From Erysipelotrichaceae bacterium (GTDB lineage Bacteria; Bacillota_I; Bacilli_A; Erysipelotrichales; Erysipelotrichaceae): a DNA stretch of 64,000 nt. This document shows positions 31,344 to 41,015 of this stretch, piece by piece. Every line of letters starts with the position of its first letter. The stretch's first letter is position 1. The translations under genes were made by a program, and so were the position numbers. Where the stretch lies: NCBI GenBank assembly GCA_017539025.1, contig JAFYHT010000070.1:1-64000 (forward strand). The letters are read 5' to 3'. The notes beneath the pieces are model-generated. The model did no database searches. It was given only the letters and a program-made list of their open reading frames with translations, and was not told where the DNA came from.

Positions 31344-31757
31344 ATGGATGACAGATATATTCATGACCGAACTTGCGTCTATAACATAAATTATCATTTG
31401 ATCTGGTGTACAAAGTACAGAAGAAAGGTTCTGTCTGAGGAGATATCAAACCGTCTGAGTGAACTCCTTACAGAAATCGGTAATGAAAAAGGCTTTTCTG
31501 TTGTTGAAGCCAGAGTGGGTGAAGAAGACCATGTCCATTGTTTTGTGTCTGCTCCTCCAAAACTATCCGTCACCGATATTGTCAGGTGGCTCAAAGGAAT
31601 ATCCGGAAGACATCTGCTTATGGAGTTTCCGGGTATATCTGAAAAACTATGGAAAGGTCATCTTTGGAACGGCTCTTATTTTTGTGAAACAATCGGATCA
31701 ACTTCCGAAGAAAACATCCTTGCTTATATAGAAAGGCAAAGCAGTGTACAGAGATGA
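31344..31757 (+). CDS. tnpA: TnpA, Y1 HUH transposase of IS200/IS605
   Basis: The 137-residue product is a full-length Y1 transposase. The metal-binding His63 and His65 lie in DHVHCFV and the nucleophilic Tyr128 in LAYIERQ. It acts as a dimer on single-stranded DNA, cutting at the left and right ends next to the subterminal hairpins. It overlaps tnpB by four bases (ATGA). All catalytic residues are kept, so it may be active. Confidence 0.93.
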   Translation: MDDRYIHDRTCVYNINYHLIWCTKYRRKVLSEEISNRLSELLTEIGNEKGFSVVEARVGEEDHVHCFVSAPPKLSVTDIVRWLKGISGRHLLMEFPGISEKLWKGHLWNGSYFCETIGSTSEENILAYIERQSSVQR

Positions 31758-32854
31758 ATATCGCCTATAAGTACAGGATATATCCGAACAAAGACCAGAT
31801 CGTTCTCATTGAGAAGACTTTTGGCTGCTGCCGCAAGGTATGGAATCTGATGTTAGGCGACAAGATCTCTTATTACGAAAAGACAGGAAAACAGTTACTT
31901 ACAACGCCCGCCAAATATAAGAGAGACTATCCTTTTCTGAAAGAGGCTGACTCTCTGGCTTTGGCCAATGTTCAGCTGAATCTTGAAAGAGCCTGTGACA
32001 ATTTCTTCAGAGACAGGAAGATCGGTTTTCCAAGATACAAATCAAAGAAGCATCCAAAGAAAAGCTATACCACCAATATGGTGAACGGCAATATCGTTCT
32101 TGATTTTGAAAACAAGACAATAAAGCTTCCCAAGCTGGGTCATATAAAAGCCGTGTATCACCGTTTTCCTGATAATGAGTGGAAAGTGAAATCGGTAACT
32201 GTTTCAAGAAACGCAATCAATCAGTATTATGTTTCAGTCCTGTTTGAATATGAAGCCAGTATAGATCCTGTCAAAGCAGATCAGAACAGCATCGTTCTCG
32301 GTCTGGATTATAAGTCCGATGGTCTTTATACCGATTCAGAAGGATACTGTGCCGGCATGCCTCATTATTACCTCAAAGCCCAGAAGAAGTCAGCCAGACA
32401 GCAGCGTAAGCTTTCTAAGAAAGTGCTCCACTCCAATAACTGGTATAAGCAGCAATACAAAGTCAACAAAACAGCCATCAAAGTGTCAAGGCAAAGAAGA
32501 GACTTCTTACATAAACAGTCTAAGAAGATAGCCAATTCCTACGATTTTGTTTCTGTGGAAGACATCGATATGAAAGCTTTATCTCAAAGTCTCAAACTGG
32601 GTAAAGCTACAATGGATAACGGTTATGGCATGTTTATCAATATGCTTTCCTATAAGCTTGAAGCCAAGGGCGGAAGGCTTATCAGAGTTGACAGGTTCTT
32701 TCCTTCTACACAATTATGTTCAAACTGCGGAAAGATAAAAAAGATACCGTTATCACAAAGAGTATACTCCTGCGGGTGTGGTATCTTTATAGATCGTGAC
32801 TATAACAGTGCGATCAACATAACCCATGAGGGTAAAAGACTGCTTCTGTCATAG
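31754..32854 (+). CDS. tnpB: TnpB, RNA-guided RuvC nuclease of IS605
   Basis: The 366-residue product has an N-terminal OrfB helix-turn-helix (YKYRIYPNKDQ), the RuvC residues Asp185 (GLDYKSDG), Glu269 (SVEDIDMKAL) and Asp347/Asp349 (DRDYNSAINI), and a zinc ribbon with Cys322, Cys325, Cys340 and Cys342. TnpB cuts DNA next to the TAM (here probably TTTAA) guided by an omega-RNA from the element's right end, which helps retain the element. Length and residues suggest an active nuclease. Confidence 0.93.
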   Translation: MNIAYKYRIYPNKDQIVLIEKTFGCCRKVWNLMLGDKISYYEKTGKQLLTTPAKYKRDYPFLKEADSLALANVQLNLERACDNFFRDRKIGFPRYKSKKHPKKSYTTNMVNGNIVLDFENKTIKLPKLGHIKAVYHRFPDNEWKVKSVTVSRNAINQYYVSVLFEYEASIDPVKADQNSIVLGLDYKSDGLYTDSEGYCAGMPHYYLKAQKKSARQQRKLSKKVLHSNNWYKQQYKVNKTAIKVSRQRRDFLHKQSKKIANSYDFVSVEDIDMKALSQSLKLGKATMDNGYGMFINMLSYKLEAKGGRLIRVDRFFPSTQLCSNCGKIKKIPLSQRVYSCGCGIFIDRDYNSAINITHEGKRLLLS

Positions 32855-38203: not shown

Positions 38204-39298
38204 ATGCAACATTTTAAGACTTATTCGGGAAAAGAACCTTATGTATTCTTTTCTTATGCCCATGCCAATTCGGATAAGGTGCTGCCTGTCATTGAGATAC
38301 TGGATCAGAAGAATTACCGTCTCTGGTATGATGCCGGGATAGAGGCCGGAAGCAATTGGCCGGAAGTCGTTGCTTCCCATCTTCTCAATTCTGATACTGT
38401 TTTACTGTTTGTTTCCGATCGCTTTCTGAAATCACAGAACTGTGCCAGAGAGGTCAATTATGCGGTATCTGAAAGAAAGAAAATGTACTGCATCTTCTTA
38501 GAAGATGTGAAACTGCCTGAAGATATGGCCATGCAGCTGTCAACGGTAGAAAAACTCTATGCCTTTGATATGAATGAAAGACAGATCGCAGAGAAGATCA
38601 TCGAAAAGATCGGCGAAGAGTATCTGGGCGATGGTGTAACGGGTTATGAAAAGGCAGAAAAGAAGGGCACTTCTGCCAATATATGGCGGATCATCTCCAT
38701 CGTTTTTGCGTCACTGTTTTTGCTGCTGGCGGGTTCTGTCTTTGCCTATTTCAACAACTGGTTTTCTTTTGCCGGAGTCAATAATGAAACGATCGATCAT
38801 GAAGGAAGCGAAGTGGAAGTCACGGAATTCAAGGATTCTCTTTCTCAAAGCATCCTTCTGAAAGCTTATGATGGGACTTCTTTGTATCTTTGCGGAAACT
38901 ATATGGTTTCTGATGCAGATGCGATCAGATATAAAGACGGAAACTGTTATATCGGTGAACAGCTGATCGAAGAAGGAACTTTTGATGATCTTGAAACGAT
39001 CGCTTCCAAGGATATCTCATATCTGGCAATGGTCAATGAGGGAATAGAGGATTTTAATGAGCTGGGAAAGATGAGCCAGCTGAAATACTTGGATCTATCG
39101 GAAAATCCGATAAAAGATCTTTCTTTCTTAAAAGGATTGAAACAGCTGCAGATACTCAAGATCATCGGCGTAGATGCGGATTATGATGTGATCGATGAAC
39201 TGAAGGATCTCAAGTATCTTTATATCAGTGAAGACATGTATCAAAGGATCTGTGAAAGCATCGATACAAGCAGGATCGATGTGGTCGTGAAGAGGTGA
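38204..39298 (+). CDS. TIR domain, transmembrane, LRR protein (copy 1)
   Basis: The 364-residue product begins with a TIR domain (residues 10-140): YVFFSYAHANSDKV, BB-loop YDAGIEAGSNWPE and LFVSDRFLKSQNCAREV, where Glu83 occupies the catalytic position of NAD-cleaving TIR domains. A single membrane helix spans about 160-182. The outer part has a beta-rich segment and two or three leucine-rich repeats (about 285-340; LKYLDLSENPIKDL). The topology suggests a cytoplasmic TIR linked to an extracellular LRR sensor. It is followed after three bases by a paralogue. Confidence 0.85.
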   Translation: MQHFKTYSGKEPYVFFSYAHANSDKVLPVIEILDQKNYRLWYDAGIEAGSNWPEVVASHLLNSDTVLLFVSDRFLKSQNCAREVNYAVSERKKMYCIFLEDVKLPEDMAMQLSTVEKLYAFDMNERQIAEKIIEKIGEEYLGDGVTGYEKAEKKGTSANIWRIISIVFASLFLLLAGSVFAYFNNWFSFAGVNNETIDHEGSEVEVTEFKDSLSQSILLKAYDGTSLYLCGNYMVSDADAIRYKDGNCYIGEQLIEEGTFDDLETIASKDISYLAMVNEGIEDFNELGKMSQLKYLDLSENPIKDLSFLKGLKQLQILKIIGVDADYDVIDELKDLKYLYISEDMYQRICESIDTSRIDVVVKR

Positions 39299-39301
39299 CT
39301 T

Positions 39302-40933
39302 ATGGAGAAATATAACGGAAACAAGTTTCCTTATCTATATGCCTTGTATACAAAGGAAGATAGGGAAAAAGCATTTGAAGTTATGAAAGTCCTGGATGAT
39401 GACGGCTATCGTCTGGATTATGAAGAAAAAAGAGATGAAGACTGCATCTCAAGGTCTTCGGCAGTTCTTCTGTTTCTGAGTGAAAAGATGATGCAGGATG
39501 AAAAGATCAGAGACCTGGTTTCTTTTGCCTCGAACCAGGCTAAGACGATCATCTCTATCTTCTTGGAAGAAACAAAGCTCACTCCGGGAATGTCGATGAT
39601 GCTGGGACAGACGCAGGGCGTGTTGAAATATCAGATGGATGAAAAACAGTTTGAAGAGAAACTTTTTGAATCGCCGATCCTCAGGGATCTGCAGATCTCT
39701 GAGCAGCAGAAGACCGCTTCTAAAAAAGCCGGGCTTTTTCCGATCGTTGCCGGAGCGTTGCTGATAGCAGCTGCTGTGCTGTTCGTCATTTTCAATCCTT
39801 TCTCCAGCAAAGATTCTTTGTTGAGCAGATTGGGGATCACCGGTAATCTGAAAAACATCTCCAGTATCTATGTCTATGGAGAAGAAGTCAGGGACGATTA
39901 TGAAGTTGCTCAGTTCATTCTGACGGATGACGGATTGAATGATCTGGTCTTACTGGAATATGATACATACGATACCGGAAACATCGAAGATATCAGCGAT
40001 TTTGCCAAGATGGAAAATCTGGAAGAACTCTGCCTTTGCGCAAACAACATCACAACGATCGAGCCGATCCTCGGCTTGCAGAAATTGAGATTGCTGGACG
40101 TTTCACATAATTACGGGATCGATCTGAGCGGGATCGCTGCTTTGAAGAATCTGGAGATTTTGAATATTGCGGAAACGGATCATGAAGATCTTTCCATATT
40201 CTATGAACTGGACAATCTCAAGAGGATTTATGTCACAGCAGGAGATTATGAAAGATTTCAAAACATGCCTCCTCATTCTTTTGAGGTCATTGCGATCAAC
40301 ACGCCAGTTAGAACTTTTGAACAACTCAAGGCAGCTTTGAATGATCCGAAGGTTCACAACATTCAGATCATGTCCAGTATTCAGATCCCGGAAGAAGAGA
40401 CAATCACCGTCAGAGAAAAAGTGTTGCTCAGAGGTGTTTCAATGGAAGAAGACATCGTATTTGATAATTACGGAACGATAGAACTATACGGTGGTTTCGA
40501 GATGGGCTTGGCCAGAAGAAACAACTATGGGACGATCATCGTAAAAAACGGCGGTGCCTATACCGGAGGAATGTGTGATACTTATAATTACGGTGATTTC
40601 ATCATTGAAGAAGGCGGCTATCAGATCATGGAAAGAGGTCATGAGTTTCAGATCGATTCCGGTACTTATGAAAACAGAGGGATGCTGATATTCGGAGGAG
40701 GCGGAGACTTCCGCTTTAACGGCGGCGAGCTGATCAATAACGGCACCATCCTATGGAATCTGGGTGACTATGGTCCGGGCATCCATCTCAACAGCGGGAA
40801 TTACGTCAATAACGGAAAGATCTATCTGCGGGATGTCAGAGGACAGGGATTGAATGGCGGCAACAACAAAGAGATCGATGAAAGCTGTATAGAGATCCCT
40901 ATAAGTGAAGTCAATTCGTATAATGCACAATAG
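39302..40933 (+). CDS. Degenerate TIR, transmembrane, LRR and beta-helix protein (copy 2)
   Basis: The 543-residue product has the same plan as copy 1. The N-terminal 130 residues keep the TIR scaffold (FPYLYALYTKEDREKAFEVMK, AVLLFLSEKMMQD) but the catalytic Glu position reads RDLV, so NAD cleavage is unlikely. One membrane helix lies at about 143-166. LRR-like units (LEELCLCANNITTI, LRLLDVSHNYGIDLSGI) follow, then residues 365-543 form an Asn/Gly-rich repeat series (DNYGTIEL, NNYGTIIV, NNGTILW, NNGKIYL) like a right-handed beta-helix. It may be a regulatory or adhesive partner of copy 1. Confidence 0.8.
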   Translation: MEKYNGNKFPYLYALYTKEDREKAFEVMKVLDDDGYRLDYEEKRDEDCISRSSAVLLFLSEKMMQDEKIRDLVSFASNQAKTIISIFLEETKLTPGMSMMLGQTQGVLKYQMDEKQFEEKLFESPILRDLQISEQQKTASKKAGLFPIVAGALLIAAAVLFVIFNPFSSKDSLLSRLGITGNLKNISSIYVYGEEVRDDYEVAQFILTDDGLNDLVLLEYDTYDTGNIEDISDFAKMENLEELCLCANNITTIEPILGLQKLRLLDVSHNYGIDLSGIAALKNLEILNIAETDHEDLSIFYELDNLKRIYVTAGDYERFQNMPPHSFEVIAINTPVRTFEQLKAALNDPKVHNIQIMSSIQIPEEETITVREKVLLRGVSMEEDIVFDNYGTIELYGGFEMGLARRNNYGTIIVKNGGAYTGGMCDTYNYGDFIIEEGGYQIMERGHEFQIDSGTYENRGMLIFGGGGDFRFNGGELINNGTILWNLGDYGPGIHLNSGNYVNNGKIYLRDVRGQGLNGGNNKEIDESCIEIPISEVNSYNAQ

Positions 40934-41015
40934 GATATGAGGCATCATCAGATGCCTTTTTATAAGGAAGTTTCGATAAAAGGGGTACAATTGAGACAAA
41001 GGAAAAAAGAAAAAC

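Follow-up and report, generated by a model that had tools for sequence, protein, structure and literature searches.

The window, by which we mean the whole 64,000-nt stretch of DNA analyzed, comes from a 2.35 Mb Erysipelotrichaceae MAG (G000, contig C64). At positions 38204-40933 it carries two adjacent TIR/LRR genes, and their ORF coordinates are exactly those reported in the earlier note (Table 1). The genes, encoding products named here chain A and chain B, lie 3 nt apart in a two-gene operon that is closed by a hairpin; a promoter scan at the locus performed no better than chance. The genes flanking the pair in the window encode MarR, glutathione peroxidase, cation efflux, DUF1349 and alpha/beta hydrolase proteins. 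No ThsA-type effector was found among these flanking genes, and the operon itself contains no effector gene.

Table 1. Features of the TIR/LRR operon, with positions in the window.
Feature	Position	Strand	Basis
Chain A, 364 aa: complete TIR, TM, small LRR ectodomain	38204..39298	+	ORF/translation, Pfam, orthologues
Chain A TIR domain, residues 11-136, BB loop WYDAGIEAGSNW	38234..38611	+	AF2 model, PDB matches, Cat1 alignment
Chain A Glu83 codon	38450-38452	+	Alignment
Chain A membrane helix, residues 163-181	38690..38746	+	Hydropathy, K/R bias in 6/6 orthologues; AF2 helix 161-189
Chain A ectodomain, residues 190-364: N-terminal cap, ~3-4 LRR turns, C-terminal cap	38771..39295	+	AF2/InlB Z 14; LRR_4
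Chain B, 543 aa: degenerate TIR, TM, LRR, beta-helix-like tail	39302..40933	+	ORF, Pfam, AF2, orthologues
Chain B predicted TIR fold, residues 9-128, with the BB loop/alpha-B stretch deleted and Leu in place of the Glu	39326..39685	+	AF2, structure match, alignment
Chain B membrane helix, residues 145-163	39734..39790	+	Hydropathy, K/R bias
Chain B LRR region, residues 172-332	39815..40297	+	LRR_4 in three stretches; Z ~14-14.7 vs. LSS11580, InlB, ANP32A
Chain B Asn/Gly-rich tail, residues 333-520, all-beta model with high pLDDT	40298..40861	+	AF2; borderline PF20585
Terminator-like hairpin followed by T run, operon end	40939..40958	+	-11.6 kcal/mol, z -2.8

Pfam searches of chain A returned TIR_2 (PF13676; E 3e-17, residues 14-125, 63.7 bits vs. 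a cut-off of 28) and LRR_4 (E 4e-7). For chain B, LRR_4 was matched with E 4e-8, TIR_2 stayed below its cut-off (E 0.0038, 18.1 bits vs. 28), and the pectate-lyase-like adhesive domain PF20585 was matched by the tail just at the cut-off. The two proteins share 27% identity along almost all of A (E 2e-22) and are therefore tandem paralogues. AF2 models, built from shallow alignments of 12 (A) and 7 (B) sequences and with a mean pLDDT of 76 each, predict that each chain folds into a TIR, a helix and an LRR domain. In VIA-align comparisons, the TIR model of chain A aligned with SPARTA TIR-APAZ (Z 16.2), AbTir (15.2) and SARM1 (13.7-14.2), and the N-terminal model of chain B with SPARTA (15.0), SARM1 (14.5) and Cat1 (14.2), while both ectodomain models matched internalin B and other LRR proteins with Z of ~14-14.7. 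Thus, structure prediction gave TIR-like N-terminal domains for both proteins (Z 15-16 for A, 14-15 for B), as the earlier note had supposed, and that of chain B is, judged from its predicted fold and homology to A, a degenerate TIR. The Asn/Gly-rich, beta-helix-like tail ascribed to the second gene product likewise reappeared as an all-beta model of high pLDDT.

Each chain has one hydrophobic helix. In the orthologous pair proteins (A, 6/6; B, 6/6), more K/R residues precede this helix than follow it, indicative of a TIR inside and an LRR outside. The topology originally proposed for both chains, with an inner TIR, a single membrane helix and outer LRRs, therefore agrees with AF2 folds, hydropathy and K/R bias, and the receptor-like layout of an outer sensor part and inner TIR is supported by structure prediction together with comparative genomics. 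LPxTG was absent from the last 60 residues of the chains, and no secretion signal or sortase motif was found.

The Glu83 of chain A, claimed to occupy the catalytic position, aligns with the Glu of the NADase Cat1 (profile match E 5.6e-7; AbTIR was matched too) and is invariant, both among the chain A orthologues of the pair and in a wider set of 13 A chains. With this Glu and an intact BB loop, chain A has the sequence hallmarks of a catalytic TIR NADase. Its profile, however, matches MyD88 and TLR TIRs about equally to the bacterial NADases, and animal TLR TIRs likewise have Glu at that position yet are not known to be NADases. NADase activity is also not assured because Asn79 takes the place in chain A of the Trp that lies four positions ahead of the Glu in Cat1. 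The statement that the second chain has lost the Glu holds for the window copy, which has Leu, but fails as a general rule, as the residue is Glu in 4/5 orthologues and Asp in 1/5. Every chain B is devoid of the BB loop (WYDxGIxxGxxW), the BB-loop/alpha-B stretch being deleted; it is this deletion, rather than loss of Glu, that defines the B of the pair.

Among the 36 genomes of the genus, both genes occur in the same six and are always adjacent there, so the constant co-occurrence which was to be checked was observed in all genomes with either gene. Chain A orthologues from five other species are 58-62% identical, and so are those of chain B; the named genomes that bear them are either Erysipelotrichaceae or uncultured Firmicutes MAGs, and several of them stem from the rumen or the goat gut. 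In the pair of G027 the B partner retains the TIR and the membrane helix, its ectodomain giving no LRR match. In none of these relatives did the two genes turn out to be ordinary fragments of a bigger surface protein. The pN/pS ratio is 0.27-0.34 (pN 0.20-0.25, pS ~0.72, with synonymous sites saturated), and the degenerate TIR of B is under as much constraint as the complete TIR of A. Chain B is 58-70% conserved in each domain except the membrane helix, for which conservation is 44% vs. 69% in A, and the ectodomains are conserved and not diversifying. A mirror-tree comparison of the A and B TIRs gave a correlation (r 0.70, 24/720 permutations) that is expected from shared inheritance and is no evidence of interaction.

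Besides the pairs, three-gene clusters in the order B-C-A were found in G013, G024 (a copy truncated by the contig edge), G027, G028 and G031 of the genus; G635, from a second genus, has one too. The triplet and the pair of G028 neighbour each other, giving a five-gene array. Exactly one complete TIR is present per cluster (12/12), carried by the chain whose ectodomain is small (153-192 aa), and wherever the B gene is full-length the larger ectodomain (337-414 aa) is on the degenerate B chain. Counted over the 12 clusters and a homologue from a prophage contig, A chains keep WYDxGIxxGxxW and Glu in 13/13 cases, with ectodomains of 153-192 aa. The BB loop is missing from all 12 B chains (11 from clusters plus one orphan, G028:C25; ectodomains 337-414 aa), the triplet B chains having I, V or L at the Glu position, and the six C chains, with ectodomains of 111-114 aa, have neither BB loop nor Glu. 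The K/R bias is less clear in C chains and in triplet-A chains. In the tree of the TIR parts the clades were supported by values of 99 (B), 100 (C), 100 (triplet-A) and 97 (pair-A), with which FastTree agrees; B and C are thus well-supported ancient clades under purifying selection. Since complete-TIR singletons without B occur, all six with Glu and a complete BB loop, along with the one B orphan, A is not always dependent on B.

Single-chain proteins with the layout TIR-TM-LRR (L111, L113), which belong to a second Erysipelotrichaceae genus, share the domain order and a complete TIR with the pair, but combine them with a ~430 aa LRR ectodomain on one chain, where pairs and triplets have split roles; no description of this type was found in the searched open-licence literature. 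Because these relatives unite both parts on one chain, the pairs and triplets resemble a division of those roles, the simplest reading being sensor mass on the dead-TIR chain and action on the live-TIR chain. The same genome as the window's pair also encodes a TIR_2 protein whose ectodomain is DUF5050 and which has three membrane helices (G000:C13:47109-47648; L001, L090); a homologue is present in G005 (L019). The idea that a membrane-bound TIR is unusual was not upheld for this family, given this protein and the single-chain proteins of the second genus. The genus also has repeated instances of a TIR joined to LRRs with no membrane helix, namely soluble proteins with a TIR and C-terminal LRR-type sequence (L058:6847-7863, L059, L060 and L061; BspA-type LRR_5 confirmed for L058). 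The gene of a TIR-FHA-like protein from Ruminococcus (L070:9983-10867) has peptide-exporter ABC genes on one side and a Ser/Thr kinase gene on the other.

The flanks of the pair vary between genomes, and orthologues of the flanking genes of the window sit elsewhere in relatives. In G013 (L050:785-6951) a 3′ fragment of an integrase gene precedes the pair, fused to a 3′ fragment of the beta-galactosidase gene that G015 has in intact form ahead of its pair; an intact integrase gene abutting tRNA-Asp follows the pair of G013, and this region looks like a tandem integrative (integrase-tRNA) island. An end-to-end homologue of chain A (35%, 1e-75) is present on an IMG/VR contig (IMGVR_UViG_3300048577_000449; L095/L100/L101), next to GajA-like and truncated GajB-like genes that an IS3-type transposase splits; integrase, phage tail and lysis genes adjoin this broken Gabija-like locus. 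The contig ends just past the A homologue, so that a B partner could not show. Elsewhere among phage and plasmid records, the sole TIR match was a soluble TPR-TIR protein in an unverified record and plasmid matches were LRR-only. The record concerned (MT836178.1, L094, ‘Bacteriophage sp.’) contains mostly bacterial-looking genes and is probably bacterial DNA. Scans of the phylum and class gave, outside the family, TIR-only matches with other architectures. PADLOC recognized no defence genes in the cluster flanks within the genus except TnpB-type Cas12f hits, and a search for STALD (ThsA-type) in six genomes gave zero matches, as did its control. Within the window, transposase-like and TnpB-like genes at 31344-32854 are the probable origin of the PADLOC Cas12f hits, and a PDDEXK-type gene at 671-1720 matches the PADLOC candidate defence family PDC-S02 (3e-134). 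A role in defence may be regarded as a plausible lead, its linkage coming from the one IMG/VR contig.

Several known systems resemble the pair in part. Animal Toll-like receptors also combine an LRR ectodomain, one membrane helix and a cytoplasmic TIR, and their TIRs are among the structure and profile matches; yet the order of the pair is reversed, with TIR N-terminal, LRR C-terminal and no signal peptide instead of the type I order of TLRs, the LRR is of internalin type, and two or three unlike chains are encoded per locus. The likeness is one of architecture, not descent. Paired plant TIR-NLRs of the RPS4/RRS1 type are two TIR chains, an executor and a sensor, encoded by neighbouring genes, but they are cytosolic and based on NB-ARC, whereas the bacterial chains are membrane-tethered and lack an NTPase. 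Similarity to Thoeris ThsB/type III Thoeris TIRs is weak and restricted to the TIR part (PADLOC ThsB 2.3e-5), the full-length curated NCBIfam model ThcB4 scoring 25.7 bits vs. a cut-off of 220; unlike Thoeris, the pair has no adjacent ThsA-like effector, is membrane-bound with an ectodomain and comprises two TIR classes. The NADases Cat1 and AbTir share the TIR fold and the aligned Glu, but both are soluble, Cat1 carries a fused cA4 sensor, and its -4 Trp is Asn in chain A. The LRR repeat type is that of the Listeria internalins InlA/InlB (E 3e-12 to internalin 4fmz, Z 14 to InlB), which, however, are exported surface proteins without TIR, in contrast to the type II membrane chains of the pair; the full-length InlA model gave 21-34 bits vs. 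a cut-off of 1600.

We consider it about an even chance (roughly 0.5) that the two genes encode a two-chain, membrane-bound sensor/executor TIR receptor. This reading draws on the layout, the predicted fold and topology, the pairing, the one-complete-TIR rule, the split of ectodomains, purifying selection and mobility in one genome. Chain B, with its degenerate TIR and large LRR and beta-helix ectodomain, would be the principal sensor, responding to a cue of the envelope or surface, and chain A, with its complete TIR and small LRR ectodomain, the executor. Binding outside would cluster the chains, and the TIRs would assemble side by side beneath the membrane, the degenerate one serving as scaffold or brake; the complete TIR would then act, most likely by cleaving NAD+ or through an NAD-derived signal. 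On this reading we infer that the chains would associate physically, that they would sense, that A would cleave NAD, and that the likely role would be against phage or surface attack. Weighing against it are Asn79 in place of the Cat1 Trp, an operon that contains no effector gene, cluster flanks in which, apart from TnpB-type Cas12f hits, no defence genes were recognized within the genus, ectodomains that do not diversify, and the occurrence of the B orphan and of complete-TIR singletons.

The main rival, which we hold to be possible but rather doubtful, keeps the same two-chain receptor and makes its TIRs a non-enzymatic, MyD88-like scaffold that recruits an unlinked partner in envelope or adhesion signalling. 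The comparably good fit of the A profile to MyD88/TLR TIRs, the missing Trp at -4, the internalin-like and adhesin-like ectodomains, the operon without an effector and the Ruminococcus TIR-FHA relative next to a Ser/Thr kinase all speak for it; yet all 13 A chains and all six singletons retain both Glu and a complete BB loop, features lost in B/C, which suits catalysis on one chain. We take NAD cleavage by A to be a more likely output than a pure scaffold. B (and C) could instead inhibit A as a membrane analogue of a toxin-antitoxin system, released by damage or phage shut-off and not by a ligand. Degenerate TIR paralogues do always adjoin an active-looking one, and the 3-nt spacing fits translational coupling, but we regard this as unlikely: both chains have conserved ectodomains, superfluous in a plain inhibitor, B is not small, and active-looking singletons occur without it.

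Two further explanations are far less probable. That the proteins are host-directed TIR mimics dampening animal TLR signalling would fit a gut bacterium, and some pathogens are reported to use TIR proteins so, but this is very improbable for a TIR predicted to be cytoplasmic and membrane-tethered in chains in which no secretion signal or sortase motif was found. Least credible is the reading of chain B as a duplicated A that is decaying, as its weak TIR_2 score and missing BB loop could suggest; this is contradicted by its conservation in all domains but the membrane helix (58-70%), the pN/pS of ~0.3 and the ancient clade across two genera.

Sensing in bacterial TIR immunity is mostly thought to be cytoplasmic. 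We found no description of bacterial TIR-TM-LRR proteins or membrane TIR receptors in the open-licence full-text literature, which is a weak absence. A survey of bacterial TIR groups describes them as architecturally diverse and, in the parts consulted, leaves the TIR-TM-LRR layout unmentioned (PMC7075850), and transmembrane forms are unmentioned in a survey of gut TIR NADases (PMC9092222). This suggests that the conserved set of complete and degenerate TIR-TM-LRR chains is undescribed in the searchable literature, TIR, LRR and membrane TIRs each being known. More broadly, we can propose only tentatively that bacteria own TLR-convergent surface TIR receptors, in which a ligand-binding dead-TIR chain would switch on a live-TIR partner across the membrane. 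If true, such a set of membrane TIR receptors, conserved and mobile, with sensing and execution divided between chains, would bring outside-in sensing to bacterial TIR systems and would be a second example, after plant paired NLRs, of a sensor/executor TIR split, and an independent bacterial origin of TLR-like signalling would become a testable question.
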